From: Capsicum annuum
Lineage: Eukaryota > Streptophyta > Magnoliopsida > Solanales > Solanaceae
Assembly (NCBI RefSeq): GCF_002878395.1
Contig: NC_061115.1
Span: 212,224,779 to 212,288,778 of the forward strand
Direction: 5' to 3'
Length of the DNA stretch: 64,000 nucleotides
Shown here: positions 936 to 51,150 of the stretch, one piece after another
How positions within the stretch are numbered: the first letter of the stretch is position 1
How the letters are laid out: each line of letters starts with the position of its first letter
The notes under the pieces: generated by a model
Database searches by the model: none
What the model was told of the DNA's origin: nothing
What the model saw: the letters and a program-made list of their open reading frames with translations, nothing else
Translations under genes and position numbers: made by a program

Positions 936-940
936 GTGCC

Positions 941-1220
941 TGTTGAAGTATTGAGTTATTTGTTGTTATTTTTCTTTTTTTGTTTAGTAATTTTATTTTT
1001 GAAATTCAGTTATTTAAGTTGATATAGAATAGGATTTATTAGTATCCTAGTTGAAGGTAGAATGGGATTTTATTCGTTTCCTAGTTACAAATAGAATAGG
1101 CTTCTTTTGTCTATTTATATTCTCAGATGTGAATGAATAAATAAGAAGAATTGAATAAATAAGAAGAATATTTTTTTATCCTCAAACGTTTTCTTCTTCT
1201 CTGTGTTCTGTAGAACAACA
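941..1220 (+). repeat. 5' LTR of chimeric Copia element
   Basis: 280 bp starting TGTTGAAG and ending GAACAACA. It contains TATTTATATTCTC (around 1119) as a possible TATA region and an extra short duplication of GAATAAATAAGAAGAA (around 1135-1165) that the 3' LTR lacks. Similarity to the 3' LTR suggests a fairly recent insertion. Confidence 0.93.
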
Positions 1221-1222
1221 AT

Positions 1223-1236
1223 TGGTATCAAGAGCC
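1223..1236 (+). other. Primer-binding site of chimeric Copia element
   Basis: TGGTATCAAGAGCC lies two bases after the 5' LTR and resembles the initiator methionine tRNA 3'-end complement used by most plant Copia elements, with one extra A relative to the usual TGGTATCAGAGC. Confidence 0.85.
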
Positions 1237-1300
1237 AATTTCTTGAGGTCTGTGAGAGAGAAGACCCCCAAAATAACCCTGCGTAAAAGTCAATATTGTT

Positions 1301-2183
1301 ATGGCTTCCAACAATTTTTCAATTCCTTCGCCCCTAATTTTTTCTGGTGAGAATTATCCAATTTGGGCTATAAAGATGAGAACATACTTGCGAGCATATG
1401 ATCTGTGGCAAGTGGTAGAGGCTGGAGGAGAGGTAAATCCTTTGCCAGATAATCCAACTATGGCGCAAATTAAGAATCACAGAAAAGAGGTTGCAAAAAA
1501 CTTTAAAGCTCTCTCTTGCATACAATCAGCACTTTCAGAAGTAATTTTCGCTAGAGTTATGGCGAGTGAGACTGCAAAGGAGGCTTGGGACAAGTTGAAA
1601 GAAGAATTTCACGGAAGTGACAAGATTAGGCAAATAAAAGTGATAAATCTGAGAAGAGAGTTTGAAATTCTCAGAATGAAGGATTCAGAAACTATTGAAG
1701 AATTCTCCAACAAGTTGATGAAGGTTGCAAACCAAATCAGACTTATGGGAGAAGAGCTTACAGATTCAAGAATTGTGGAAAAGGTTCTTGTGAGTTTGCC
1801 GGAAAGATTTGAAGCAAAGATCTCCTCACTCAAAGATTCGAAAGATCTACCAAAACTGTCACCTCCAGAATTTGTACATGCTCTTCAAGCTCAAGAGCAA
1901 AGAAGATTCTTAAGGCTAGAAGAAGCTACTGAAACTGCTCTTCAAGCCATGTTCAAAGGGAAGATGCAAATGCAAGAGGAAGGTAAAATCCCAAAAACTT
2001 CTACTAATTCTAGTAGAAATAATCAAGGCGATTCTCGCAATGGAGTCAAGAAGAGAGAAAACTTTTCTCCATACAAGTATTGCAGTAAAACCAATCATAA
2101 AGAGGATGATTGTTCGTTTAAGGGGAAGAAACCACCTCTCCAGTGTAGATATTGCAATAAGCTTGGACATATTGAAAGGTTTT
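1301..2183 (+). pseudogene. Copia Gag (DUF4219/UBN2 type) cut by a solo LTR in its zinc knuckle
   Basis: About 294 residues of retrotransposon Gag. The N-terminus carries the usual F-x-GENYPIWAIKM motif (residues about 14-26), followed by a UBN2-type helical capsid region with DSETIEEFSNKL and RIVEKVLVSLPERF. A basic linker leads to a zinc knuckle starting C-R-Y-C-N-K-L-G-H. The reading frame meets the TGTAACACCCCG end of an inserted LTR at 2184, just before the last cysteine of the CCHC knuckle, so the present ORF ends in LTR sequence. The missing Cys codon is found in phase immediately after the LTR at 4798. Apart from this insertion the Gag frame is fully open, which implies the insertion is relatively young. 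Confidence 0.9.
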
Positions 2184-4793
2184 TGTAACACCCCGATTCG
2201 CTGAACCGGAATTCTACACGGTGCTTATGACCCCGAGGGACCACAAGCTAACCCATGACTGATATCTGTACCTGTATACTGCAAATCATGATATAATAAT
2301 GCGGAATACATAGAACTGTAAGGCCATAAGGTTCAACTGAATAAAATCATGTGGGTGAAAATACCCAAAACAACTCAATCTGAAAGCTAAGTCTGAACGT
2401 AAATCTAAAATCCTCTAAACTATCTGAATAAGGATTTGAAGGAACATGTCTCCAACTAACTCCGTAAAACTGAACTGAAGAAATAAATAAATGTATCAAA
2501 TCATATTGTCCTCGAATCAATGAGGACTCACTGTGTCTCTGCGACTGGAATGCTACCGCTACTGCTGGGCTGGAGCTTGTGTCTCGGAACCTATGGTGTA
2601 ACATGAAAAGAAAGCACCATAGCGCAAATGCGTCAGTACAACTGGAGTACTGAGTATACGAGGAAGGTAGGCTGAACAGAAAGGGTTTCATGCATGAACA
2701 ACACTGACTGACTAATATGAACATGGGAGTGCAAACACACATATATAGAAACTGGGACCATGAATACGTGATAGCATGACCAGTAAGCTAATACATGGTT
2801 TATTGATAACTGTCATGACTGATACTGAAACTGATAACATGGACGACTATATCTGACAGTCCTGCATATACTGAAATCTGAAGAACGCCCTGAGTTATTT
2901 TATTGAGACTGATACTGAAACTGTGGGAAGTAGTGTTTAACCGACATGCCCCATGCATGCCGTTATGGCTAAGTTGGGGTCCAATCTCTGCCCGACTGGA
3001 TGGGTGTCAATACCGTGCCATGGGTAAGGACAGCCTGTGAGTGACCCTTATCTGGCGGGTACTCAATGAGAACGGTGGGAACCCTAAACTGACGGGTTAA
3101 GCCACCTCATCAACCCTAATCTGACGGGTTAAGATGTCTCAACCTACGCTGGCTACGTAATTCTGGAACACAAGGATGACTACTAAGAATCACACCCTGA
3201 ACTGGCGGGTGAGTTCCCATCCTTGGGTTCACTCGGTGCTAACCTCTACTCCTATCTAGAGGGACTGGACATGAATAACTGACTGTGCATGACTTAATCT
3301 TACTGAATTCCGTTGACTGGCGGAATGTTACTGATATCTGATAACTGACTAAGATCATGAGGTTTTCCTGAGTCACATGACTGACTGAAGTCTATGGAAT
3401 CATAGCTTGAGTTCGGATATCGTGAAACATGACATGGCTCTAGGCACACAACTATAGTTTTCGGGTACAAGTACCCCCAGGACTCGATAGGAGGAAACTG
3501 ACACACATGACATGACTTGATCACAAGATTTGAGTCCACAATTCACAATATCATAAGTAAGGCTTTCATAATAAGAATGATTGTCAACAAACTATCACAT
3601 GATCGGGAATGCACACAACATGTATATACTTGCATGGCTTCAATAACATGGTCATTCCATATCACAACAATATCATGAGCATCTCGTACAACTTCTTCAA
3701 TTCAAGCCAATAGCATGGGGATCACGTTGAACATAAACTTAGAACATGGAATAGTCATTTAGGACTTATTATGTCATAAAAGCATGATTTCTATTCCCTT
3801 AGGTGTTTTCACAAACACCTTACATGCATATCTTAGGCATAGGTGGATTCATCAAGATTACAAATATTCAACCACCAATTTCACATATTTATACGTTAAA
3901 TACCACCATATCCTCACAATAAACATACAAAGATCCCATCTTAGGCATCATCAAACTCCAACCACATGAACATCAACCACCAACAACATAAACATCATAA
4001 TTCAAAATTTAGAAGAGGTTCTTGAGCTTCATGGACGAAAGGAGTCCATGAATCAACTCACGCATACCTTAGAAGGAAGATTCTTGATGATTGACGGAGG
4101 AATTTCCTTGAAATCGGATCTTCAAGCTTAGTTACGCAACCCTAGTTGTTTTTCTCTTTTAGTGCTCTTGGATGATGAGCTTTGAGATGATAATAGGGTT
4201 GTAATATGTTTAGAAGCTATATATTTCGTAGGGTTAAGTTTAGGGATGTGTAAGGAGTGTTAAAAGACTTAATTACCCTTAAAATAACTCAAAACGGAGT
4301 GTTTTTGGCACCTGGAACTGACTTAGGCGGCGCCCAAGTGATTGCCTAAGCTAGGTTGGGCGGCGCCTAACCAATTGCCTATGTTTGGTTGGACAACGCC
4401 TAACCAATCGCCTATCCTTACTATCTCTCACGAAAATGGGCATAACTTTTCGCTCGGCTATTGGATTAAGGCGAAATTGGTATCGTTGGAAAGCTAATTC
4501 GATTCTCTACAATTTGGTGGGTCTAAATCAGCCAAAATACCACATTAACATCAAGTTATACTCGTTCAAAGATGACCTTTGCAAAATCGAACACTAAAAC
4601 TTGATGGATTCAAAAACTCTTAGCTTGTATTGCCTTAAGTGACTCATATGAACATGCTTAATGCCTCATAAACTATCCTATCACTAGGATATTCATTGTA
4701 AGTCATGTACTCAAGTATGAATTACAGGATAGGAGATTTCATACGTAGGAATATTTATTCACTTCCTAGCTTAGAAACATGCGGGGTATTACA
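2184..4793 (-). mobile_element. Solo LTR (2.6 kb), probable Ty3/gypsy, inserted in Copia Gag
   Basis: Bounded by TGTAACACCCCG on the left and CGGGGTATTACA on the right, i.e. TG...CA ends with short inverted termini, and flanked by the perfect 5-bp duplication GTTTT (2179-2183 and 4794-4798). There is no PBS, internal domain or second LTR, so this is a solo LTR left by LTR-LTR recombination. It is homologous, in opposite orientation, to the 2.9-kb solo LTR at 48082-50972. Sense is judged to be minus from a TATA-like AAATATATAG (reverse of about 4217-4226) followed by a CTAGGGTT leader. Open frames inside are not conserved coding sequence. Very long LTRs with these ends suggest a Tekay/Del-like gypsy family, but that is recalled, not tested. 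Confidence 0.9.
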
Positions 4794-4797
4794 GTTT

Positions 4798-5250
4798 TGC
4801 AGAGTGAAGAAGGTGAACAACCAACTATCTCAAAAAGCCAACGTTTCGAAAGTTGAAGAACAGGAGGAGTTTGTGTTTACGGCGATGGCAGCAACAAGAT
4901 TGAATGATAAAAATACATGGTTTCTAGATAGTGGTTGCACTCAACACATGACCAGCAAACGAGAATATTTTACGAAGTTGGAATCTGCCAAAGGTAGTGT
5001 CAAGTTGGCCGATAAAACCACGTTGGAGATTGTTGGTAAAGGAATTGTGGCAATTAAAGCTCCCAAAGGTACTAAATTTATTCGAGATGTTTTGTTGGTA
5101 CTTGATCTTGACCAAAATCTATTGAGTATTGGTCAAATGCTAGAACAAGATTACATGTTACTGTTCAAAGACCAAAAATGTGTTGTTTCTGATTCTAGCG
5201 GCCAAGAAGTGGTTATAGTTGAAATGATAAAAAGAAGTTTTCCTTTGAAT
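4798..5250 (+). pseudogene. Copia protease / GAG-pre-integrase segment
   Basis: Resumes the Gag frame after the solo LTR: a basic linker, then W-F-L-D-S-G-C-T-Q-H-M-T, the DSG active-site motif of the Copia aspartic protease and its characteristic flank. This is followed by the GAG-pre-integrase region with D-Q-N-L-L-S-I-G-Q. The frame stops at TGA 5251-5253 where related proteins usually have a Trp codon, so a single TGG to TGA change is plausible. No integrase core follows; host-derived sequence begins instead. The ATG at 4705 lies in the solo LTR and is not a real start. Confidence 0.85.
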
Positions 5251-5253
5251 TGA

Positions 5254-6246
5254 AACTCAAATTCTGAGGAAGTTTGTCGAAGTAGTCAATGTCACAACAA
5301 TGACGGTTTTATTTTTTATTCTGGAAAAATTGAAAATTGTTGCGCTACAATGGACGTTGAAATCGAACAAATCACTTCTCAAGAAAATCCTCAAAAGCTT
5401 CAAAACAGTAAGGAGGCTATAACTAAGGATAATCCACATACTGTAGCTGGGACCACATCCGGATCTCCAGACTCTGGCAATAACAATAGTTCCAATTCAG
5501 ACCTCACTTTTCATGAAGATCAGAAGGACGGAGATGATGGGATGGATGATTGGGATGATGTGTCAAACTATGATGATGTTGATGACTATTTATCAGAATC
5601 CTTTTGCAAGAATGATAGTGTTTCAGACAATGCTTCACCTCATTCTGGTCCTTTGCAGAAATGTGGTTCAGCAGAGAAAGGAGAGCATTCCTCAGGAGAT
5701 GTTTCTTTAAATCCTGCAACATCGAGTCCTGAACCCAGTATGGATGCAACGTCAAAAGATCTTAACTTCACAGATGAAAATACCAGTGCAAGTGAAAAGC
5801 AGGTGCTTATGAGATATTTGCTTTATGGTATCTGCAAGCAGTTGTTGTGCCGACCCGTAGTTCTTAATTGTGGCCATGTTTATTGTGAAAATTATGTGAT
5901 CAATCTTAGCGACAAGCTATGTAGATGTCCAGTTTGCCAACTGGAGCATCCAAATGGATACCCCAACATTTGTTTGATTCTTGCACACTACCTGGAAGAG
6001 CAGTTTCCCGAGTTGTATGCATCAAGGGAAAAGGCATCAGCATACAGAGCTGCTCGTCAGATCCCATCTGCACAAAATCAGGACGAGGCTGCTGGCTGCA
6101 AATCACTACCTAGATTTGATCTTTCCGCATGGTTAACGGGAGGAGGGTCGCAAGTTCATATTGGGGTAGGTTGTGATCATTGTGGGATGTGTCCTATTGT
6201 TGGGGAATGGTACAAATGCAAAGACTACAAGGAGAAAATAGGAGCT
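5254..6246 (+). pseudogene. PRT1-like: Captured PRT1-like E3 ubiquitin ligase fragment (acidic linker, RING, start of ZZ)
   Basis: An uninterrupted open stretch inside the retrotransposon that is not retroviral in character. It has a Ser/Asp-rich acidic linker (about 5500-5610), a C3HC4 RING finger with V-L-N-C-G-H-V-Y-C and C-R-C-P-V-C (about 5830-5940), and a ZZ zinc finger beginning V-G-C-D-H-C-G-M-C (about 6165-6195). That order matches the second RING plus ZZ of plant PROTEOLYSIS1, the N-degron pathway ligase. RING cysteine 1 (tat at about 5824) and cysteine 5 (tat at about 5893) and one ZZ cysteine (tac at about 6228) are now Tyr, so zinc binding is lost. The frame matches the upstream protease frame. 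It ends at TAG 6247-6249. The exact 5' junction is unclear; sequence from about 5254 to 5350 could be Copia or PRT1. Absence of introns suggests capture from mRNA. Confidence 0.85.
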
Positions 6247-6440
6247 TAGAAGATGTTCATTATGGATAACTGTAAGGAGCTTATGCCCGAGTACCTTGGA
6301 TTTGTGAAGGGTGTTGTGGACTTTGATTATTTGTCTCTCAACATCTGTCGTGAGATGCTACAACAGAACAAGATTCTCAAGGTGATTAGGAAGAACCTTG
6401 TGAAAAAATGTATTGAGATGTTCAATGAAATTGTTGAGAC
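6247..6440 (+). pseudogene. HSP90-like: Captured cytosolic HSP90 fragment
   Basis: About 60 residues starting [10 protein letters not shown] and continuing through [12 protein letters not shown] and [15 protein letters not shown], unmistakably the end of the HSP90 middle domain (client/ATPase-regulating region). Substitutions at normally invariant positions (for example F-D-Y where S-E/D-D is usual) show it is decayed. The 5' junction follows the PRT1 fragment directly at about 6243-6250, apparently with one base missing from the HSP90 Arg-Arg-Val codons. The 3' junction falls in a K-E-D stretch common to HSP90 and the Copia tail. Confidence 0.88.
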
Positions 6441-6552
6441 CAAGGAGGATCAACTCGCTGATATATTTAACAAAGCTCTTCCCAAATTTAAATTTGAAAC
6501 TCTTTGTAAACAACTTGGAGTTACCAGCAAGCATCTCAAGGAGGAGTGTTGA
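6439..6552 (+). pseudogene. Copia polyprotein C-terminal tail
   Basis: Encodes [16 protein letters not shown] followed by a short tail and TGA at 6550-6552. D-Q-L-A-D-I-F-T-K-A-L is the hallmark end of the Copia RNase H region. The stop overlaps the first bases of the 3' LTR at 6547, as in many Copia elements. It confirms that the host fragments lie inside the element, not beside it. Confidence 0.9.
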
Positions 6553-6808
6553 AGTATTGAGTTATTTGCTGTTATTTTTCTTTTTTTGTTTAGTAATTTT
6601 TTTTTTTGAAATTTAGTTATTTAAGTTAATATGGAATAGGATTTATTAGTATCCTAGTTGAAGGTAGAATAAGATTTTATTTGTTTCCTAGTTAGAAATG
6701 GAATATGATTCTTTTGTCTATTTATATTCTCAGATGTGAATGAATAAATAAGAAGAATATTTTTTTATCCTCAAACGTTTTCTTCTTCTCTCTCTGTGTA
6801 GAACAATA
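6547..6808 (+). repeat. 3' LTR of chimeric Copia element
   Basis: 262 bp starting TGTTGAAG and ending GAACAATA (terminal CA mutated to TA), preceded by the polypurine tract AAGGAGGAG. It is nearly collinear with 941-1220 except for a few substitutions, a homopolymer-length change and the missing short duplication. Confidence 0.92.
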
Positions 6809-6813
6809 GTGCC

Positions 6814-7850: not shown

Positions 7851-8192
7851 GTTTCATAGATTAAACCTGGAGTTTTATACAATACTGATACGATAACTAC
7901 CCCTTGAAACTAGGACATGAATTTCTAAGTTCTAATATTACTGTTGGATTTTAGCTTTGAAATTGGAGAAATAATAGAGAAAAGTTAGGAGAAAAATAAA
8001 ATATGGCAATAGTATTGTCAAAGGAAATTATTTTATTAATAACTCAAAACATGTATTTATAGCTAAATTTCTAACTACACTTCAATTTAAATTGGGATAA
8101 CTAATTCCTATTCAAATAATAAAGGGACAACTAATTCCTAAGTCACATAAGACTCTAATAATTAAAAACTACTAAAAATATATATTCCTACT

Positions 8193-8771
8193 TTATTTCT
8201 GAGACATATTTTCAACACTACTCCTTGGATTAGAAATTGTCTCGGCTTCAGCTGAATTTGACCTTTTGAATAAATCTGCCAATTCGTCTTTATTCTTGCA
8301 TGACTTATGTGCATCTTCTATTGGATTAAATATGAAACTTTTGTCTCTCATGTCAACTTGTAAAATCTCATGATTAGTAGAATCAAAGATTCGACAATAT
8401 TTGTCTCCAAATAATAATTTAAATCCTTCTTTCATTAGCTGGCCAACACTTAACAAATTTTTGTCAATATCGGGCATTTAAAGGACATTTGAAATTATTT
8501 TTGTACCTGAAACTGTTTTGATTGCAACATTCCCTTTTCCTTTTGCAGAAAGATAGTCACCCTTCTCAATTCTGATTTTCTTATTTTTCAAAGGCAAAAA
8601 CTCTTTAAAAAGAGTTTTGTCATATGTTATGTGGTTTGTACAACCACTATCAATCATCAAAAAATCAGATTTCTTGGTTGAAGATGTTGCCACAAATAAG
8701 TGATCTTCTTCTTCTTCTTTGGTGACTTGGGCTTCTGCTTCATATTTTTGAGATTTGTTTTTGCAAATCAC
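8193..8771 (-). pseudogene. Copia protease and truncated polyprotein tail
   Basis: Minus-strand translation from 8771 contains F-L-M-I-D-S-G-C-T-N-H-I-T, the Copia protease active site. One stop at about 8478 is followed by M-P-D-I-D-K-N-L-L-S-V-G-Q-L, the GAG-pre-integrase region. The frame then reaches C-K-N-K-D-E-L-A-D-L-F, a fragment of the normal C-terminal end, and stops inside the LTR. The jump from GAG-pre-integrase to the tail marks the internal deletion that removed all replication enzymes. Confidence 0.83.
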
Positions 8772-9562
8772 AGCTTCATAGCCAAGTTAATTGCAAATCT
8801 TGCATTGTGCATCTGGTCTCTTCCAACATTTAAATGGAGGATAACCTATTTTGCCACAGTGTTGGCAAGGTGGGTAATTTTTTCTTGAATTATTACCTTT
8901 GCTTTGAGTCTTGTGGTTGGCTGTCAAAACTCCTTCAACCATACCATCCTACCTCATTAGCTTCCTTTGCTCTTGCACCTACAACGTATTTAACAATTCT
9001 GCCAAGGTAATCTTGGACAGATCTTTTGTGTTTTCCAAGGTAGTTATTGATACTTTGTATCTTTCAGGCACAGCAACAAGAATTTTTTCAACAATTCTTG
9101 AATCTTTAAATTTTGTGCCAAGCAATCTTACCTAGTTAATAATGCTAAGAAGTCGGTCTGAGTACTCTTTGACGGTCTCAGATTCCTTCATCTTTTGCAA
9201 TTCGAATTCCCTTATTAGATTCAATACTTTCATGCCTCGTATTCTTTCATCTCCGGTATATTCTTCTTTCAAATAATTCCAAATTTCTTTTGGTGATTTA
9301 ATGGTCATAATTCTCATGAAAATTATTTGAGACAGACTAGCAAATAAAGTTGCTTTTGCCTTTGATTTTCTAATTTTCTTTTCCTTTTGATCTGGGCCAC
9401 TTTGGGATTATCAGGCAGCGGAACAACATCATAATCCTCCTCCACAGCCTCCCAAAGATCTAAAGCCTTAATATAAGTCTCCATTCTTATTGCCCAAAGA
9501 TGATAATTCTCACCATCAAAGACAGGAGGAGCTATTTGGGAAAAGTTATTTTCAGAATTCAT
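8770..9562 (-). pseudogene. Degenerate Copia Gag
   Basis: The N-terminus has F-D-G-E-N-Y-H-L-W-A-I-R-M at residues about 15-27 and P-L-P-D-N-P-K-V-A-Q-I-K, as in the Gag at 1301. A stop/frameshift near 9320 separates this from the UBN2 part (S-P-K-E-I-W-N-Y-L-K-E-E-Y, about 9132-9317), with further stops at about 9130 and 8940. Downstream minus-strand sequence contains C-Q-H-C-G-K and C-K-I-C-N motifs, remnants of zinc knuckles. Not functional. Confidence 0.85.
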
Positions 9563-9880
9563 CTCTCACACATCCCTCAAGAAACTGACTCTTGATACCA
9601 ATTGTTGGTTTTTAGCTTTGAAATTGGAGAAATAACAGAGAAAGAGTTGGAGAAAAATAAAATACGACAATAGTATTGTCAAAGGAAATTTTTTTATTAA
9701 TAACTCAACATTATTTATAGCTAAATTTCTAACTGCACTCCAATTTAAATTGGGATAACTAATTCCTATTCAAATAATAAAGAGACAACTAATTCCTAAG
9801 TCACATAGGACTATAATAATTAAAAACTACTAAAAATATATATTCCTACTTTATTTCTGAGACATATTTTCAACAATTAC

Positions 9881-14607: not shown

Positions 14608-18717
<4,110 letters not shown>

Positions 18718-22527: not shown

Positions 22528-25500
22528 TCAATTGCTTCCTAACAAACTTTGCAGCTTCTTCCTCGCGTCTTCAGACAAACTACAACACCTGAATCTTGGC
22601 CTCTGGGATGGAACTGGAGTGCGGTGATCAGGAGACGTAAAGCATACAACGATTGCAGTGAGATTGTCATCTGTGTCTTTAAATAAAGCTTGATTCACAA
22701 GTTCTCTGGCAGACTGCTGAGGGTCATTGTGCACCCTAAGCTCACCACGAACGATATTCACTGCTTCTTGATTTGACATCACATCCCAGATGCCATCGCA
22801 ACCAAGTATCATGAACTCATCATCCTCGGTCAACAACATCTGCTTAACTTCTGGCTCTGCAGTAAGAGGAGATGCAGACCCAAATGGAAGCTTCATATAC
22901 CAATCTCCAAGGGCTCGAGTAATTGCAAGATCACCATTTAAGCAACCATATTCAATAATACCGCCCAACTTCTCAACTCTTTGTCGTTCCATCAGACAAG
23001 TTGGCCTGTGATCTTGAGACAACTGGACTGCAACACCTTTCCTACAAAGGACAGCACGACAGTCACCGGCATTAGCAACCACCAGATGTCTTCCCAAAAC
23101 CAGAGCAGTTATTGCTGTTGTCCCGCAATAGGCATCAACATTACATTCATCAGCTAAGGCCTGATCAGCAATTAAAAAGGCTCTGAAGTGAGAGCTTTCC
23201 AATTCTTCCAAGAATGCTTGATCAACAACAGATGTTTGTGGCAAATTAGCATCTTCAAAGAAAAATCTCATTGCGTTAGTCCTGACATAAGCAGCTGCAT
23301 CAGAACCTCCATGACCATCAAACACAGCATAGAAGGCACCTGGAAGAGGCCAATTGTATAGAGAACCCAACTGATCTGAAAGATCATCAACACGAATATG
23401 TTCATCTTCATTGGATCTACGAGGTCCAATATCAGTATAGCTACCCGAACGAATAGCTGGAATAACATTTCTGCTTCTAGCTGAATCAATTATAGTCGTC
23501 TGAGTACTAGTTGAGCATCTCACACCCTAAATAATTGCAAAAATATAGAAGGTCAGAACACGGTTACACTGCATTTCAGTCACACAATCAGATAACAGTA
23601 TCAACAAGCATAACAAAAACTCTAAAACATATTCAATCATATAGCCGCTGCCCATAAAAGAAGTGAGATAATAGTGTCTGCAATCATATAACTGCAGTAA
23701 CTCACATAAGAAATGAGATAATATAGTCAAATAGCTCAACAAAATCGAAAGTAACCAACAAAAACATCGTTTATCACATGGAGAAACCAATAAGAGTTCA
23801 AAAGTGAAAATCCATTCCTTCAGCAAATAGAAAAATCACTCAACTACAGCGCAATCCCGAACTAGTTCAGTCAGACATACGAGCCCCCCTAGAATTTATC
23901 GTAGTTACACTATTCTTATACGGACCCTAAACTTAGCACAACACACTTTCTTTCAACTTGGACCTGCTACACACTTCCAGCAAAATTTTTATACCAGCAA
24001 TTCCACTACTGAAAACAACTCAAAATAGCAAAATTGAGCTTCTTAACCCCTTCCCATACCAATAATATCTATCAGATGAACCTTTATCAACTCTGAACCC
24101 TAAATATCAGAACAGATCCATAACAAATACAACAACATACGCTGTGTAACCCCCCAAGTAGGGTGTGGGTAGGGTAGAGTGTACTCAGCCCTTACTCCAA
24201 CCTCATGGAGGTAGAGAGACAGTTTCCAAGACGACCCTCAACTCAATTCCAGAATAAAAAACAACTCAGAATAGCAGAATTGAGTCTTGTTAACCCTTTT
24301 CATAGCAATAATTATCCATCAAACAAACTCCTTAAATTCCGAAAACTAAATAATACCACATCAGAACCTCTACACAGATCCAAAGCGAATACACAGAAAA
24401 AAAACCAGTGTATTCCCACACAGTGGGGTCTGGGGAGGGTAAGATGTACGTAGTCCATACCACTACCTCCGGAGAAGTAGAATACACAGAAAAAAAGCAA
24501 AGAAAAAAAAGTTGCTACAGAAAATCCAACACTAATCATCTCCGAATCCCAACAGGTCAAAAAATAGGTAAATTCTTCAAAATACGCATACATAAACCAA
24601 ATCACCACAAATTTAACTCAAAACAGTCACCCAAAAAAGAAGAACAAAATAAGGAAATCAAATCTGAAACTTCACCAAATTGGAAACCGAATAAGCAGAG
24701 GAAAATTCACAGGATTTTGGAAGAGAAGAAGGCGTAGTAGTAGCAGAAAAGACAACCAAACGCTGATGTACACAACTGAAAATTTAGGCAAGAAACAAAA
24801 TCTCGGCATCTACTACTACATCAAAACAGTAGTTGGAGTCGGCGGCTCCCCCACGGTTCCTCTACGCAGATCCAATTTTTCACAACAAACAAAAAGCACA
24901 TAGAAAAGCAAATAAAAACAATATGCTATTCGAATTCCACCCGAGCAAAATTAGGTAAATTTTTCAAATTGCTGCAAAATAACTCAAATTATTACCAAAA
25001 AGAGCAGAATAACAAGAACGGAAAATCAACAGTGAAACTTTTCCAATACGGAAACTGAATCAGCAGTCCGAAAAGTAGCAGCAGTAGTCGAAACATCAAA
25101 AAACTCCAAATTTTCCTCTGCAACCACCGGCGCTGCCATAGAAACTCGGATATACTCAACGAAAACACTATTCTACACTCAAAATCTCGGCATCTACCAT
25201 GCAGATCCACTTTTTCACAACAAACAAATACATACACAAAAAGCAACGAACAACCACATGCTAGCAGAGCAAAAATTAGGTAAATTCTTGAAAATACTAC
25301 CAAATCACGCAAACTAACTCAAAAAATTACCAAAACATGAGAAATCTGAAACTTTACTGAATCGGAAACCAAATCAGCAGCGCAAAACTATGCAAGATTC
25401 TTCAAATTACTACCAAATCACGCAAACTAACTCAAAAAAATACCAAAAAAACGAGAAATCTGATACTTTACCAAGTCGGAAACCTAATCAGCATTGCAAA

Positions 25501-36863: not shown

Positions 36864-39800
36864 TCACTCGCAGCAGTTTGGTTCGTGCTCTTTCTGCAAT
36901 TTCTCCCACAGACATAGTACCATCCTCGGATTCTGATAATGTGCAAGAATATAGCCTGATTCACAACCGGCATTGTAAAATCTCTCATTGTCAACATACT
37001 GTACTTTGTCACCCTTCCTCCTGAATTCCTCAACCCAAATGCCCACAGCAACATCCTCAAGTTTAAAAAGCTGACAAAAGATACAAAAACAAACAAAAAA
37101 GAGGACATTATCAACAAAAATAGCAAACAAGTTAGCATTTTGAGTGGATTCTTGACTTCAGAAATTTGTCTCGCGTGCTTCGTCTCCTCCTTTCTTTTTG
37201 GTTCAAAGGATACTATTTTATATAGCATCAAATAATATTACATTCATAGTTCTTCTATACTAGATAGTTCCAAGTTTGTCGGTGCAATTATATCTTGTTA
37301 TCAGTCCACACAAGTAGTTGTAGAATTGCTCTTGTAGTTTCTGGTCCTTCCATTTCTATTATTATTGTAGAGGATTAGTGGGTAGGAGTTCCGCCGTTCT
37401 AGTAGGGAAGAGTGCTTTGTTTGTATCTGCGCCCGGAGTTTCTTGTTCATGGTATTTCGGTGATGTCTATGATTTTGGATAGATAGTTTATAGTAGTACC
37501 TTGTGGGTGTCTTATTTCCATTAGTATCTAGCAGTGTGTTATCCCATCTTGTTGTGTGCTTTTGTATTTTCTGTCTATTATACTGTATATGTCCTGAGCC
37601 GGGGGTCTATTGGAAACAGCCTCTCTACTTCATCGAGGTAGTGGTATAGACTGCGTACACTTTACCCTCCCCAGACCTGACCCCACTTTGTGGAATACAC
37701 TGGGTATGTTGTTGTCGTCAAATACTTCAACTATTATATTATTTTTTTTGTAGTTACTGTTGTTGTGTTACTATCTGCTATTTCTTGTACTTCTATTACT
37801 TCTTCTGGACTGCTTTGGACTACTTTTCCCTTCAGCCAAGGGTCTACTGGAATCAGTCTCAGTACCTATGATATAGGGGCAATACCCTCCCTTTCCCCCG
37901 ACCCCACTTTGTGGGATAAACTGGGTATGTTGTTCTTCTTGTTGTTGTAGTAGTAGTTCCTAGTGTGTTTGCTTCAAAAACATTTAAAACAAACAACGGA
38001 GGAACTCTAGAAAGCAAAATGGTGCTTTTTTTCTAATGCAGTATTTTGCTTCATTCTATTTAGTCTGATGATGATATAAAATGTACTTAAATGAAGAAGT
38101 GGGGATTAATATAGACGAACCCAACTTGTTTGAGACTCAAACATACTTCTTGTGTTTTGCTTCTTCCTATTGATGATACGGATTAGATTCTTTTAGTAAG
38201 TTGATTATCTGTACCATTTTCTGTTAAGTCACAACAACAACAACAACAAGCCCAGTGTATTTCCATACAGTGGGGTCTGGGGAGGGTAAAATTACGCAGT
38301 CCATACCGCTACCTCCGAAGAAGTAGAGAGGCTGTTTCCGATAGACCCCTGGCATTTTCTGTTAAGTCACATAAGATCGAAATAAACAGTTCAACTATTC
38401 ATTTACTCCTTGAAACTATCTTCTTAGTAGTAATTCATGATAAGAAGGCAGAAAGATCAGGTCGAAAAGAAAGTTGAATTCTGTATCGCAACAATAAGAC
38501 TTGAGTATTACCATCAGTTCCCGTTCTTGATGGCCCTGAACAATGAACTTAGCTATATCTCGAGAAATAATATAACCTGGTCCGTGTGCCCATGGGGGAT
38601 AGGAGGAAGGAGGATATTCCTGCAGAAGGAAATTGTGATTAAAGAGATTGTATAATGCTAATATGAAAGACACGAGTTTAGAAATAAATACCTCGGGACT
38701 GATATACCACTTGTTGTCTTTATCCCTGTGGGGTGCAGAGTCGAAAGATATTCCGCCATATAATATACCATTAGGATCCTTTCCCTTGAGGCTAGATAGA
38801 ACTTCATCGATCCGTACAAAAGCATCATCATCAGTCTTCATAACGTATTTGGCAGGTAGGATTTTAACCTGCAATTTAATCAAACCAGCGTTTTAGCCAA
38901 ATATTCGTCAAAAATATATCTAAATAATACTACTAATAATAAAAGTTCCATATGAGTCTAAACCTATCGTCAACTAGTAGCTATCACCTATACGGATCTT
39001 TTTCTTCCATTGTATCCTATCTTTAGCTAAGTCTGTGTTGATACCAAGCAATTGTAGGTCTTTTGAGATCACTTCCTTCCTTGTAATTTTAGGCTTATCA
39101 TGTCCACTTTTAACACCTTCACTTACCATAGTTTCACACCTATGGACCGGTGCATCTGTATATAGACGCAGAACATGTTCAAACCATCTCAAGCAGTCAT
39201 CTCGCATTTTATCCCCAATGTGTGCTACTTGCACCTCTTGGCGAATGTGGTCATTTCTAATCTTATCTGATCTGGTATGACTGCATAAATGTCTTTGCAT
39301 CTGCATCTATGCGACACTTATCTTGTGGATATGTTGGACTTTAGCAGCCCAACATTCACTAGTTTAAGGATATAGCAAGGAATATTCTTATATACAAACC
39401 AACAACCTTTATATGTAGCCAAAAAGCCTTCATACACTAAATATTCTCCAAAATGAATTGTGAAGTAAAAAAAATTTTCACCTCACCCCAACGGGAGGAT
39501 CAATGATGTGCCCACTTACCGTCCAGCGTGACTCGAACCTTCAACCTATCAGTTGATGGAGGAGATGCTCAACCACTACTAGCGCTAGCCTCACTTCAAT
39601 TGGTGTAGTAAGACTTTATAAAGCTTTTCTGGGAGTGTATGTAATACAATCCTTTAGCAATTATAAATAAAAGAAGACTCAAATTTGTGGTGGGGCCCTT
39701 CCCCGGACACCGCGCATAGCGGTAGCTTAGTGCACCGGGCTGCCCTTTTTTAATTAAATAACGAATAAATTCAAATTTTTACTCATAAATACTTGAAAGT

Positions 39801-42100
39801 CCTTACACCCATAATACAAATCGCTATGGTCTTCAAAGCTAGCAAGCTGTAGTAATCAACAAAAGGTAATAATTGGATATCTCCATAGGCTTGTGCTTCC
39901 TTCCATAGCTCGAAATTGACCTGCCTATTTTTATCCTGCATTTGTTTTCGAAAGGACATATAAGTAATGATCAATTCCTAATAGAGCAACGAAAAACATT
40001 AGACAATGTAATTTAGCAACAAAGCTAAACAACAATATCATACAACTGAGATATCGTACTTGAAATAGATGGAGAAAATGAAATTAGTTACTACAATAAC
40101 TACTTCCAGTTGACTGCCGCACTTACAAGACCAATAAAAAATCGGACAGCTACTTCTCCTGACCGCACAGCTTCATATTGCATCCATGATTTCCTCAGTG
40201 CCATACGTCTCTCAAAATTGTTTCCAGTAGAGAAAACTCCAATTAACATGACAAGCCTCTTTTTACGAGTTGGTGGAGCTTTGAGGTGCTCAACGTCATA
40301 ACCCAAGTCCAAATCATTGGAAACAGGTAATCCTTTCGCTAAGATCGATATGGTGTCCACACCACCTATCACATTGACTCCACTAACCAACCAAGGTTCA
40401 AGTTTCTGCATTTGTAGAAACACAGTACTATAAAAGGAGTTATCCATAAAATTCACGCAACAGTTCCAAAAGATAATAAAGCTAAGTGATCTCGCTGAAT
40501 CTATCAACACTAACCTCTCTATATGCAAAAGAAGTCTCATGTCTTCCATTGACCGTCATATGGAACCCCTCTATACCAGCCCATAGTGTTGCAGTAAACG
40601 GATTACCCTCAAGAAAAGGGTAATTGGCAGCACCATAGGCACTAGAATTTGACACATTTGTGGACTTCGGATCGCTAGGATTGGTCGTATTTGCCGTTTC
40701 TTGTATATAATTTCGGAAAATTTTGGCGTTGCATTTGACTAGTCCATCAACTGATATATGTAGGAGACTATGTCAGATTACTAGGTTAGAAGGAGCATAC
40801 AACTTTCTCCAATATGCAAATGATGATATGACTTATCAAAGAGCAAAACAGGAACGATTCCTTTTCAAGCAAATGTTACATTGACGATTCATTGAATGGT
40901 TGAATTCATAATAACAAACTTTCGAAGACTTGAAATTTGTGGCATAATTCACTAAATGAGAACCATCATCATCGTGCCACGTGGGCGAACCCAATCTATA
41001 CCTATCTTGCTTCAACTGAAGCTGGTCACAAATCCTTATAGTGAAGTTCTAGTACTATCAGATAATTTTCAGAAAAGGGTTGCAATCTACTCAGAAGACA
41101 GAACGAATCCCTCTCTAAGTAAACAAGCGGTTTAGCAACTAGCAAGTAAGATCGACATTTTAGATAGAAGACTATCTCTACAAAGATATCCAAGATCACG
41201 TGTAATAGTTTCTTCCCTGAATGAACACAAATCAGAAGATCACAAAATGTCAAGTAATTCTTTTTTGAATAATTTACCTTTTATCATGTCGGTAGAGCCA
41301 TGATCAGGGCATTTTTCCACCTTACCCCATCCAGAATCATTAGTCCATGTATTTTGAGTGATGAGGGGATCCTTTGTCAAGTTCTCCCCGGGCAAAATTA
41401 CATTATAATTCAAAACTATAGGACGGTTTGTTTCCTCTGGAAGTTTTGAACCTACAAGCTCAATTTGAAAACTTTCTTGTTTTGCATCAGGTATACCGAT
41501 CACAGTAATAGATGAATCCTCAACTAAGCCACAAGGGATCCTGAGATTGCTCCCATCCCTCAATGTCGCGGTATTGAATGCAGTTACAGAATAAGGACAG
41601 TCGTCATTTTCCGTCTCAACTTGAGAGGCCTTACTTTTCTCAATAAACGAAACCAAATCTTTCCACGCTATAGCAGCCTCCTTAACTCCTTCAGCAGTTC
41701 CATTCAAACCATCTGATCTAGACAACAACAATCTCATTTTGCTCCATGCTAGCAATGCCTTAGACTCTTCCCTTGAAAAATTACTCAAGCAGTATAGATC
41801 ATTAAGCCCTTCGACATCAATAAGACGCGGTTTTTCCTTAAACGTAACTAGCTCTACTGGTTTTAATTTAACATCTTTTGGACCTTCATTAATGTCTGGA
41901 TGATCATTGAAAAACCCATAAGCTGATTGCTTTTGCGGAGACTCTCCCTCACTGCTGCCCGACTTTTCTACAATACTGTATGATTTTTCTACACTGCTGT
42001 ATCGAACCAACAAGACCAATGCAAGACCAATAATAAGAAGGTATCCAGCCCACTTCTTCCTTCCCACTTTTCTAGTTAATATATACTTCTTCATTCCCAC
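36864..42100 (-). CDS. GALT1-like: Galectin-domain beta-1,3-galactosyltransferase (GALT1-like), seven exons
   Basis: Golgi type II glycosyltransferase of family GT31 with a galectin-like lectin domain. Exons: 42100-41278, 40750-40515, 40405-40127, 39935-39807, 38868-38692, 38619-38512 and 37070-36864. All junctions are GT-AG and in phase (intron 1 splits a Val codon, the rest are phase 0), giving 652 residues. A membrane anchor lies at about residues 19-34 ([13 protein letters not shown]). The galectin region has L-R-I-P-C-G-L and [19 protein letters not shown]. The GT31 core has R-R-x-A-L-R-K-S-W-M, the catalytic DDD in K-T-D-D-D-A-F (about 502-504), and a C-terminal E-D-V-A-V-G-I-W-V. It probably adds beta-1,3-galactose to N-glycans (Lewis a pathway) if truly GALT1, or to arabinogalactan protein hydroxyproline if a GALT2-6 relative. 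No disabling change is seen. Confidence 0.93.
37370..37722 (+). mobile_element. RTE LINE 3' UTR fragment
   Basis: Plus-strand copy of the 3' UTR seen at 17460-17860 reversed: GTAGGAGTTCCGCCGTTCTA, TTGTTTGTATCTGCGC, GTATTTCGGTGATGTCTATG, CTTGTGGGTGTCTTATTTCC, then CCCCACTTTGTGGAATACAC and a TTGTTGTCG tail. No coding part remains. Confidence 0.82.
37830..37945 (+). repeat. TS-type SINE fragment
   Basis: CAGCCAAGGGTCTACTGGAA, CCCTCCCTTTCCCCCGACCC, CACTTTGTGGGATAAACTGG and a GTTGTTCTTCTTGTTGTTG tail. Confidence 0.78.
38227..38352 (-). repeat. TS-type SINE with duplicated target
   Basis: ACAACAACAACAACAAGCCC head of the tail, GTGGGGTCTGGGGAGGG, CCGCTACCTCCGAAGAAGTA, CTGTTTCCGATAGACCCC. TTTTCTGTTAAGTCACA occurs on both sides (38217-38233 region and 38355-38371), a likely target duplication of about 17 bp. 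Confidence 0.85.
38974..39306 (-). mobile_element. Second RTE-type LINE C-terminal fragment (intron 4 of GALT1-like)
   Basis: Minus-strand frame reads [29 protein letters not shown] and L-A-K-D-R-I-Q-W-K, matching the tail of LINE polyproteins but from a different subfamily than 17861-18142. No RT motifs. Confidence 0.75.
39466..39602 (-). repeat. tRNA-derived SINE in GALT1-like intron 4
   Basis: Minus strand: GAGGCTAGCGCTAGTAGTGG (A-box side), GAAGGTTCGAGTCACGC (B box), GGGCACATCATTGATCC and GTTGGGGTGAGGTG with an A/T-rich end. Confidence 0.75.
39686..39752 (+). repeat. Au SINE 3' end fragment
   Basis: GTGGTGGGGCCCTTCCCCGG, ACACCGCGCATAGCGGTAGC, TTAGTGCACCGGGCTGCCC and a T run. Confidence 0.85.
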
Positions 42101-48574: not shown

Positions 48575-49319
48575 CCTTATAACACGAGATTTGGCCACAA
48601 TTCAGCAACTTACACTCAATTACTCTAAAAAACTCTCAAGAAGAAGCCCTAGGGTTTTCATAGAAGGTTCAATTCCAAGGAAATTTACCATCAAATTTCA
48701 AGAATCTCTCCGTCAATTTTCATAGAATCACAAGCTAAGGTATGCGTAGTGTTCATTCATGGACTCCTTTCGTCCATGAAGCCCAAGAATCTCTTTTCTA
48801 AGTTTAAGTTTATGGATTTCTTTATGAATTTCATGTTGAGTTTGTTTTGTTTTTGTTGAGAATGATCAATTGAATTCAAATTCATGTTGGGTAATCAATT
48901 TTATATGGAATTGATTTATATAGATTAATATTCATGTGAACCTATGAATAAACCCTAGATGATGAAATTAGAGATGAATCATTATGATTAATTGTTGTAT
49001 AATATTGTCTACATGTGCTATGCCTACCATGTGTTTGATTAAATGCCTAGACGAAGGAACAATGCCCAACTAGTATGATATCATGAAATCCCCATGTATG
49101 TACAAGCTTATGCATATCACATGTTTGGTGAAGTGCTTCAATATATGAATTATGATTGTGTTGTTGGTCATGTGTTCAAGTAAGCCATGCTATGTCAGTT
49201 TCTTCTCATCGAGTCTTCGGGGTACTTGTACCCGAACATTTAGCTGTGTGCCTAGAGCCATGTCATGTTTTCACGATTTCCTCAGTCAAGCTATGATCCA
49301 TAGAACTCAGTCCGTCATA

Positions 49320-49460
49320 TGACTCAGTAAATCTCAGAAATCTCAATAATCTCAGTAGTTCAGTAATCTCAGTGATCTCAGTACTCAATAATCTCAGTAA
49401 CATCAGTATTTCCAGTCAATCTCAGTAACTTCAGTATTCTCAGTCAGTCCTTAGAACTCA
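49320..49460. repeat. (AATCTCAGT)n minisatellite within solo LTR
   Basis: About ten imperfect copies of a 9-10 base AATCTCAGT unit. The other LTR copy lacks this expansion. Confidence 0.85.
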
Positions 49461-49937
49461 GTACATTCCGTCAGTCAACGAAACTCAGTAAATTTAATTT
49501 ATCTCCGCCAAATAATACCACTAGTATCAATTCAGTTCAGTTAATCAGTTTAATTCAGTTAATTAGTTCAGTGTCTTTAAGATAGGAGTAGGATTCAGCA
49601 CCGAGTGAGCCTAGGGATGGGGACTCACCCGCTAGATAGGACTGAGATCCCTAGAAGCAATCCCTAAGTTCTAGAACTACGTAGCCAGTGTAGGTACGAG
49701 ATGTCACCCATTAGATAGGACTGACTTATTCAGGGATCACCCGTTAGCGCAACTAAATGTATAGGACTGATCCCAGGGGTCACCCGCTAGATTAGGACTG
49801 ACTCCACAACAGTTGTCTTTACCAGTAGCGCGGTATTGACACCCTTCCAGCTGGGGTTACAGGTTGGACCCCAGTTAGCTTAGTATGGGGCATGTTGGTT
49901 AGATGAATACATCCCACAGTTTCAGTTATAGAATCAG

Positions 49938-50261
49938 GACTGTCAGATACAGTCAATTCAGCTCAGTAGTACAGATATAGGACTGTCAGATACAGTCACT
50001 TCTTATCATTTTAAATAGACTCCGGGATCACCAATTAGACATGATCGATCTCAACTATGGTCAACCAGTAACGGTATCATCAGATTTAGAGATCACCCAC
50101 CAGATAGGACTGATCTTAGATCAGTTACTCAAATATAGTATGAAACTCGGCCAGTTCCATCAGATTCAGGACTGTCAGATACAGTCACTCATGTTATCAG
50201 TTATATCAGTTATCAGAACTCATGTTATCAGTATCCAGCTTCAGGACTGTTAGACACAGTC
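49938..50261. repeat. Dispersed GACTGT-N5-ACAGTC palindromes in solo LTR
   Basis: GACTGTCAGATACAGTC occurs at 49938-49954, 49981-49997 and 50170-50186, with GACTGTTAGACACAGTC at 50245-50261; a weaker copy follows near 50286. The other LTR has one such site (2843-2859). Confidence 0.9.
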
Positions 50262-51150
50262 AATCAGACCAGTTCTTCATAATCAGAACTGTCAAAAATA
50301 GTTATTCATGTATCAGTCCCTCATATATCAGTAATTCCATGTTATTAGTAAACTCAATATTCAGAACTTAGCATTCAGTCCTATCACGATGTTAGTTACA
50401 GTTACGTATGCATGCATGTATTCTCACGTTGATGTTAGTCAGTCAGTTAGTATTGCTCATGCATATGAACCTATTGCATTCAGCCTACCTCACTTCCATA
50501 CCAGTACATTCAAAGTACTGACGCATTTGCGCTATGGTATCTTATACCATAGGTTTAGAAACACGAGCTCCAGAGAACCAGTATCATCCCAGTTTAGCGA
50601 TCAGAGTTAGCAGTGAGTTCTCATCATTCGAGGACATGATGATCACATTACTATTTCAGTTTTCAGTTTACTTCAGTGGTTGGAGTTAGTTGGGAACATG
50701 TCACATCAACTCCTTATTCAGATAGTTTGCAGGCTTTCAGACTACAGTATGTTTAGACAATTATCTCAGTTATTTTGGTATTGTTATACCATATTTTTTC
50801 AGTTATGTACTAGTATTGAACCTTATGGCCTTTCAGTTCATGTTTTCGCATTTACGATATTATTACTATTATTCAGTGCTCAATTTACAGATATCAGTCA
50901 TGGGTTAGCTTGTGGTCCTTCGGGGTCATGAGCATCGTGTAGCGTCTCGGGTACCAGATTCGGGGTGTTACAGAAGACTGAACCGATTAAAACGGGATCT
51001 TCATCAGGGAGAGTAAGAATACGCGTTGTACTCTTTTTTCCTTAACCAAGGTTTTTATCTCCTTGAATTTTTTCTGGTAAGGTTTTTAATGAGACAACAC
51101 TCAAATGCATATTCAATGAATTTTTCTTTACATGGACATCCAAGAGGGAA

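Follow-up and report, generated by a model that had tools for sequence, protein, structure and literature searches.

A pol-less Copia retrotransposon family of Capsicum carrying mostly in-frame chimeras of host coding sequence, very probably assembled by serial capture of host mRNAs

Pack-TIR elements and Helitrons can hold several host gene fragments per mobile element and copy genomic DNA, introns included, and non-autonomous LTR elements of the TRIM type depend on helper enzymes. Among LTR elements, the closest counterpart to the locus analyzed here is maize Bs1, which contains segments of three host genes in a chimeric reading frame (PMC13317346). In pepper, LTR-driven retroduplication has been described for NLR genes (Kim et al. 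2017; PMC5664825), and additional ORFs carried by plant LTR elements have been reported that have no similar gene sequences outside the elements (PMC7264820).

Here we describe a Copia element located in a 64,000-nucleotide stretch of the Capsicum annuum genome (hereafter, the window), together with its relatives. The element presumably shares helper dependence with TRIM elements but keeps gag and protease and carries coding cargo, whereas its LTRs, 5-bp target duplicates, and spliced cargo set it apart from Pack-TIR elements and Helitrons and led us to reject an origin from either. As in Bs1, several host genes are joined in a chimeric frame within an LTR element; the pepper family is set apart from Bs1 as described in PMC13317346 by a different host and different genes, by the occurrence of the chimera at at least 26 places, and by sister forms that add TFB1-like and MULE-like pieces (and NAC in protein models) and in which later captures appear to overwrite earlier ones. 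The pepper elements of Kim et al. likewise are largely non-autonomous LTR elements of Capsicum with cargo from spliced mRNA and loss of introns, whereas here gag and protease are kept and the cargo is joined in frame; neither "heat shock" nor "ubiquitin" is mentioned in the main text of that paper (PMC5664825). Extra coding sequence inside LTR elements is also common to the pepper family and the additional-ORF elements, as these are presented in PMC7264820, but in the pepper family the parents can be identified and pol is lost. The literature searched, mostly titles and the openings of abstracts, yielded no account of the pepper family and no lineage in which sister copies preserve serial in-frame overwriting. 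Multi-gene capture itself is already known from maize Bs1.

Element structure and host cargo in the window

The window contains a single LTR/Copia element at 941-6808, flanked by an exact 5-bp target duplication (Table 1). Its LTRs are 87.5% identical over 279 aligned columns, with a K2P distance of 0.060 (259 aligned sites). The primer-binding-site-like sequence ATTGGTATCAAGAGCC presumably resembles the complement of initiator tRNA-Met, and the DQLADIF tail is what we take to be the end of the RNase H part. No Pfam match to integrase or reverse transcriptase was found in the scanned pieces, and host cargo fills their place; with both enzymes missing, the element is a non-autonomous derivative and not a full Copia element. 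A preliminary description, based on the nucleotide sequence, had proposed a Copia element, bounded by intact LTRs and a target duplication, in which pol is replaced by host pieces, and the LTR pair, the GTGCC duplicates, gag, the protease region, and the position of the cargo between protease and tail all agree with it. The proposed plan of one retrotransposon stands, with the amendment that gag is interrupted by a later insertion. This 2.6-kb insertion, probably a lone LTR or a small LTR element, has its own GTTTT on either side and is not part of the cargo. It is absent from 18 of 20 other copies, namely, those with a visible gag-protease join; the other two, L019 and L023, do not have the join region, and L019 carries an insertion-related stretch beside its shortened protease region. 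A relative of the insertion lies at about 48695-50975 (-) in the same window.

Table 1. Features of the Copia element and its cargo (window coordinates)
Feature	Position	Strand	Basis or remark
Target-site duplicate GTGCC, left	936..940	.	identical to 6809-6813
5' LTR, TGTTGAAG...ACAACA	941..1220	+	with short tandem duplication missing in 3' LTR
Primer-binding-site-like ATTGGTATCAAGAGCC	1221..1236	+	read from sequence
Copia gag, broken inside zinc-knuckle region	1301..2178	+	PF14223 E 3.8e-36; DUF4219 E 3.2e-9
Later nested insertion, TGTAACACCCCG...CGGGGTATTACA ends	2184..4793	+	GTTTT duplicates 2179-2183, 4794-4798
Copia protease / Pol_BBD region; in-frame stop at end in window copy	4799..5253	+	PF22936 E 4e-25
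Short Copia remnant and shortened HSP90 N-piece remnant, then presumed UBC38 5' untranslated part	5254..5349	+	BLAST in sister copies
UBC38-like E2 fragment, N-terminal part	5350..5589	+	comparison with pepper gene and P0122
PRT1 fragment: linker, second RING, half of ZZ	5579..6243	+	four exons of C3 gene: 5579-5878, 92.7%; 5878-6073, 96.4%; 6071-6186, 94.0%; 6186-6243, 96.6%
HSP90 middle-domain fragment	6254..6449	+	93.9% to HSP90 parent on C3 (196 bp)
Copia 3' coding tail, DQLADIF...; stop inside LTR	6450..6552	+	ORF translation, sister copies
Polypurine tract AAGGAGGAG	6538..6546	+	read from sequence
3' LTR	6547..6808	+	copy of 941-1220
Target-site duplicate GTGCC, right	6809..6813	.	identical to 936-940

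Between the protease and the 3' tail lies a chimera drawn from three or more host genes, with every piece oriented like gag. The PRT1-like RING/ZZ segment and the HSP90 middle-domain segment named in the preliminary description are both present, and its count of two host genes has to be raised to at least three by a UBC38-like E2 fragment. The interval 5254-6246 has matches to the ZZ domain of PRT1 in the PDB (E 1.1e-9), to PRT1-named proteins with E values down to 9e-108, and to the unnamed RING/ZZ protein P0003 of C. chinense (5e-135). Four exons of a parent gene on contig C3, near 5.08 Mb, match the element, and because it lacks all three introns between them (82 bp, about 3.4 kb, and about 0.4 kb), the segment comes from a spliced mRNA. 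The HSP90 fragment, which in the window copy is directly preceded by an in-frame stop, is matched by PF00183 (E 2.6e-30, spanning 6253-6549) and by HSP90 chains in the PDB (best E 9.3e-27), and its parent is found on contig C3 near 221.7 Mb. The window part of HSP90 falls within one parental exon, where intron loss cannot show; the HSP90 N piece of the sister element L033 has lost a 93-bp intron. Thus, the interval 5254-6440 matches both PRT1 and HSP90, and, on sequence similarity, chance is excluded as the source of these matches.

The third gene emerged from a search with residues 135-245 of the C. baccatum protein P0001, which returned UBC38 proteins of Capsicum and other Solanaceae, including P0122 (85% over 73% of the 111 residues). 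The window stretch is 84% like residues 1-87 of P0122, and the pepper UBC38 gene, on contig C7 near 205.3 Mb, is 97% identical to P0122 over residues 21-213 and 96.1% identical to window positions 5411-5589 (179 bp). Homology to the genomic exon begins, to within two bases, at the splice acceptor (5411); a search of 9.7 kb upstream of the C7 gene yielded no first exon. A 5' untranslated part of UBC38 is presumed to precede the coding fragment, which ends without the catalytic core. Upstream of UBC38, BLAST detects the HSP90 N-piece remnant in 18 of the 20 PRT1-form sister copies and gives no match to it in the window copy itself. Segments of several host genes inside one LTR element, derived from spliced mRNA (PRT1, the HSP90 N piece, and UBC38), are the hallmark of Bs1-like gene-transducing elements, and the cargo shows the intron loss by which retrogenes and retroduplicates are recognized.

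Copies, sister forms, and the likely order of capture

When the genome was queried at the DNA level with 5254-6440, 40 of 134 candidates were scored and yielded 50 matches. The further copies for which the preliminary description had proposed a search do exist: at least 26 places, including the window, cover at least 1116 of the 1187 bp at 86-100% identity and are spread over 11 chromosome-size contigs. We fetched 20 of the other 25; all 20 have the order UBC-PRT1-HSP90-tail, and 16 retain both LTRs. Judged by eye, the target duplicates of the fetched copies and the window element are exact in 9 of 17 cases, one base off in 6, and unclear in 2 (L020 and L028). The divergence between LTRs ranges from 0.035 to 0.120 across 17 copies (median, 0.060), which, when the rate of Kim et al. 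2017 (1.3e-8; PMC5664825) is applied, places amplification of the PRT1 form at roughly 1.3-4.6 million years ago. L028, a PRT1-form copy, has a longer HSP90 stretch, as would be expected if PRT1 had entered a long-HSP90 element.

Protein searches extend the family to four Capsicum species. The best 120 of 168 matches were listed, and the 29 examined comprise 26 Capsicum chimeras, from C. annuum, C. chinense, C. baccatum, and C. chacoense, and 3 PRT1 proteins; going only by name and domain list, none of the other matches listed looks chimeric. The names given to copies in public databases include Heat shock protein 82, endoplasmin homolog, and Receptor like protein 27, and some copies are joined to Kinesin NACK1 (P0001, P0031, P0032, P0036, and others). 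Such misannotated copies would inflate the counts of HSP90 and related gene families, a warning to annotators.

Nine sister elements with other cargo were also fetched, so that 30 copies were laid out in total. In L033, L034, and L041, an HSP90 N piece is followed by a TFB1/GTF2H1-like piece and then by an HSP90 middle piece, such that the TFB1-like sequence splits HSP90. This piece resembles a TFIIH subunit: the BSD domain is matched at E 3.4e-5, with 24.2 bits against the Pfam cut-off of 24.6, and GTF2H1 is matched in the PDB at E 0.0019; the upstream TFB1-like piece has no PDB match, and a PDB search with P0124 gave no useful match. L030, L031, L035, and L040 contain UBC38, then a TFB1-like remnant, then HSP90, and L036 and L042 contain UBC38, a MULE-transposase-like piece (PF10551 at E 4e-4 in L036, the one element scanned, with a score under the cut-off), and the end of the HSP90 segment. 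At least two types of UBC-TFB1 joint exist, represented by L031 and L035, and that of L031 is kept in the MULE-like form. L035, with the second joint type, belongs to a set of 21 places that have the start of their TFB1-like match in common, at about query position 467-472 and not earlier. The HSP90 part of L031 is about 120 residues longer than in the window form and meets the tail at its GLKL motif. A Trp replaces the first Arg of the HSP90 gene motif (YVWRVF versus YVRRVF) in L030, L031, L033, L034, and L035, and the same Trp, as AWKMF or AWRMF, occurs in the majority of those PRT1-form protein models long enough to include the site. The long TFB1-like piece is found together with UBC38 or PRT1 in none of the 30 copies. 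Among protein models, P0140 has UBC38 and a remnant of PRT1 joined to the end of a NAC protein, perhaps a lead to a further capture, with splicing of the gene model as another possible source. In the C. baccatum model P0123, a UBC38 fragment is joined to an F-box/LRR protein, which may be a further capture or an insertion beside a gene.

The nested remnants imply an order of overwriting, of which the simplest version starts with HSP90 and proceeds through the TFB1-like piece and UBC38 to either PRT1 (then perhaps NAC) or the MULE-like piece. A gag-protease tree of 28 of the 30 copies (L019 and L023 have too few sites) is star-like, with 2 of 25 inner branches well supported, and requires four changes for the PRT1 form; given this shape, neither a single origin nor the order is confirmed by the tree. 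The cargo forms are nevertheless clustered on it, with 6 changes compared to a shuffle mean of 8.7 and a value as low in 0 of 200 shuffles. Exchange between packaged RNAs could have blurred the order. The LTR divergence of four sister elements (0.042-0.080) is like that of the PRT1 form, which suggests a roughly contemporaneous spread of the cargo forms.

Joints, reading frame, and coding state

Comparison of the parents with the elements reveals shared letters at three joints. Where UBC38 meets TFB1, CTGAAGATGA occurs both in the UBC38 gene and in the TFB1-like piece of the sister elements, UBC38 and PRT1 have ten letters in common with one mismatch, and CTCG-TGAT is common to the HSP90 gene and the window tail; at the PRT1-HSP90 joint, the comparison gave no clear shared stretch. 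These letters fit template switching at short homology, without proving it.

The reading frame was scored in all 30 copies, counting those in which both sides of a joint were recognized. The numbers in and out of frame are 28/1 for protease to HSP90 N piece when judged by the remnant (2/1 by the longer piece), 20/5 for HSP90 N piece to UBC38 (out in L013, L022, L031, L040, and L042), 16/3 for UBC38 to PRT1, 16/4 for PRT1 to the HSP90 middle piece, and 24/1 for the latter to the tail (4/0 in the long form). For the sister cargo, they are 2/0 at UBC38 to TFB1 (2/1 with a second probe, L030 being out), 7/0 at TFB1 to the HSP90 middle piece, and 2/1 at HSP90 N piece to TFB1, where the probes are up to 400 bases apart. 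The majority is in frame at all eight joint types, some of the counts being tiny (2 of 2, 2 of 3), and the probability of eight in-frame joints at one in three each is 1.5e-4, a rough figure given that only successful forms are visible. Frame retention could, indeed, stem from ascertainment, amplified forms alone being visible.

Most copies are no longer open: 20 of 21 have stops or shifts between protease and tail, and L014, the only one open over this interval, has a gag that is not; among protein models, P0001 of C. baccatum is likewise open across the protease-to-tail span. A PRT1 E3 ligase has two intact RINGs and a ZZ domain, whereas here the match begins past the first RING, the second RING is without its first Cys, and ZZ is cut; this first zinc ligand, Cys in the parent, is Tyr in 18 of the 19 readable copies (21 examined). 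Between copies, dN/dS in the true frame is 0.58 for gag (17 rows), 0.52 for protease (18 rows), and, with 21 of 21 rows each, 0.78 for UBC38, 0.73 for PRT1, 0.56 for HSP90, and 0.47 for the tail. For gag, UBC38, and PRT1, the true-frame value exceeds that of one or both shifted frames, and for protease, HSP90, and the tail it lies slightly under the two, with wide bootstrap ranges (0.29-0.90 for HSP90), so that the comparison between copies reveals no clear constraint. Given the missing catalytic core of UBC38, the halved ZZ, and the lost RING ligand, the cargo is most likely a non-functional passenger rather than a working ligase or chaperone.

Proposed origin and alternative explanations

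Taken together, we consider it very probable that these elements form a pol-less, non-autonomous Copia family of Capsicum that acquired host mRNAs serially by template switching and spread in frame. An ancestor would have acquired an extended piece of HSP90 mRNA, placed after its protease and ahead of the 3' coding tail, and later captures would have replaced the inner cargo, with a TFB1/GTF2H1-like mRNA followed by UBC38 and then PRT1, giving the window form; a MULE-transposase-like gene and perhaps NAC would represent side branches. Element RNA and spliced host mRNAs packaged in one particle presumably recombined as the reverse transcriptase switched templates at short homologies, and this enzyme and integrase would have had to be supplied in trans by a related complete Copia helper. 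Recombinants with an open Gag-protease-cargo-tail frame would then have spread, as an open frame probably keeps the RNA stable and translated in cis.

Another history, in which a single capture of an already fused host gene or gene fragment was followed by losses that gave rise to the forms, would account for the tail and HSP90 parts common to the fetched forms, but is extremely unlikely considering that the parents reside at three separate loci on C3 and C7, that none of the 30 copies laid out unites the long TFB1-like piece with UBC38 or PRT1, and that HSP90 is split by TFB1-like sequence in three sister elements. The possibility that the LTRs belong to two separate elements flanking a genomic segment, which the preliminary description had itself raised, or that the locus is an assembly error, could appeal to the old and broken state of the window copy; it is practically eliminated by the recurrence of the segment, in the same order, at places elsewhere in the genome, by the target duplicates, and by protein records from four species, and the two-element version is ruled out by the recurrence and the duplicates alone.

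Two further explanations concern what the chimeras do. It is very unlikely that a Gag-RING-HSP90 fusion works in ubiquitin or chaperone pathways to the benefit of the element or the plant. The in-frame joints, the open intervals of L014 and P0001, the role of all three window-form cargo genes in protein quality control, and the dN/dS of HSP90, protease, and tail a little below both shifted frames speak for such a gene, but the cargo consists of fragments (UBC38 without its core, half a ZZ, a piece of HSP90) with a substituted RING ligand, dN/dS is not below the shifted frames in UBC38 and PRT1 and has a wide range in HSP90, and the TFB1-like, MULE-like, and NAC cargo of the sister forms falls outside the protein-quality theme. 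A role through small RNAs, whereby siRNAs from many silenced copies would reach the PRT1, UBC38, and HSP90 parents, is somewhat less improbable, though still unlikely: the 93-97% identity to the parents and the tens of copies are compatible with it, and captured genes are described as siRNA reservoirs in maize (PMC13317346), but it would act alongside capture and not in its place.

Returning to serial capture, we would only tentatively generalize it, with the balance tipping slightly against, to a plant LTR lineage whose mRNA cargo occupies an exchangeable slot, in which swaps occur by template switching and only in-frame Gag-cargo-tail swaps spread; if this holds, a cargo-slot element would be a naturally occurring library of in-frame fusions made from host coding sequence. 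The usual view of gene capture by LTR elements is one of single frozen events. The pepper sister copies keep apparent intermediate steps, such that joints, frame, and likely order can be read in one genome, and the capture mechanism (template switching at short homology) and the survival rule (an open frame) thereby become testable.

The surroundings of the element in the window include a second, different pol-less Copia-like element, which adjoins the first at 7942-9875 (-). Its direct repeats of about 275 bp are 94.6% alike, the primer-site regions of the two elements are alike, and its protease-like ORFs lead directly into a DELADLF-type tail, with no host cargo seen by eye. Farther along the window, at 14608-18690, 22528-23523, and 38416-42100 (-), are what we take to be likely dihydrolipoyl dehydrogenase, PP2C phosphatase, and galactosyltransferase genes, so that the element sits near genes.
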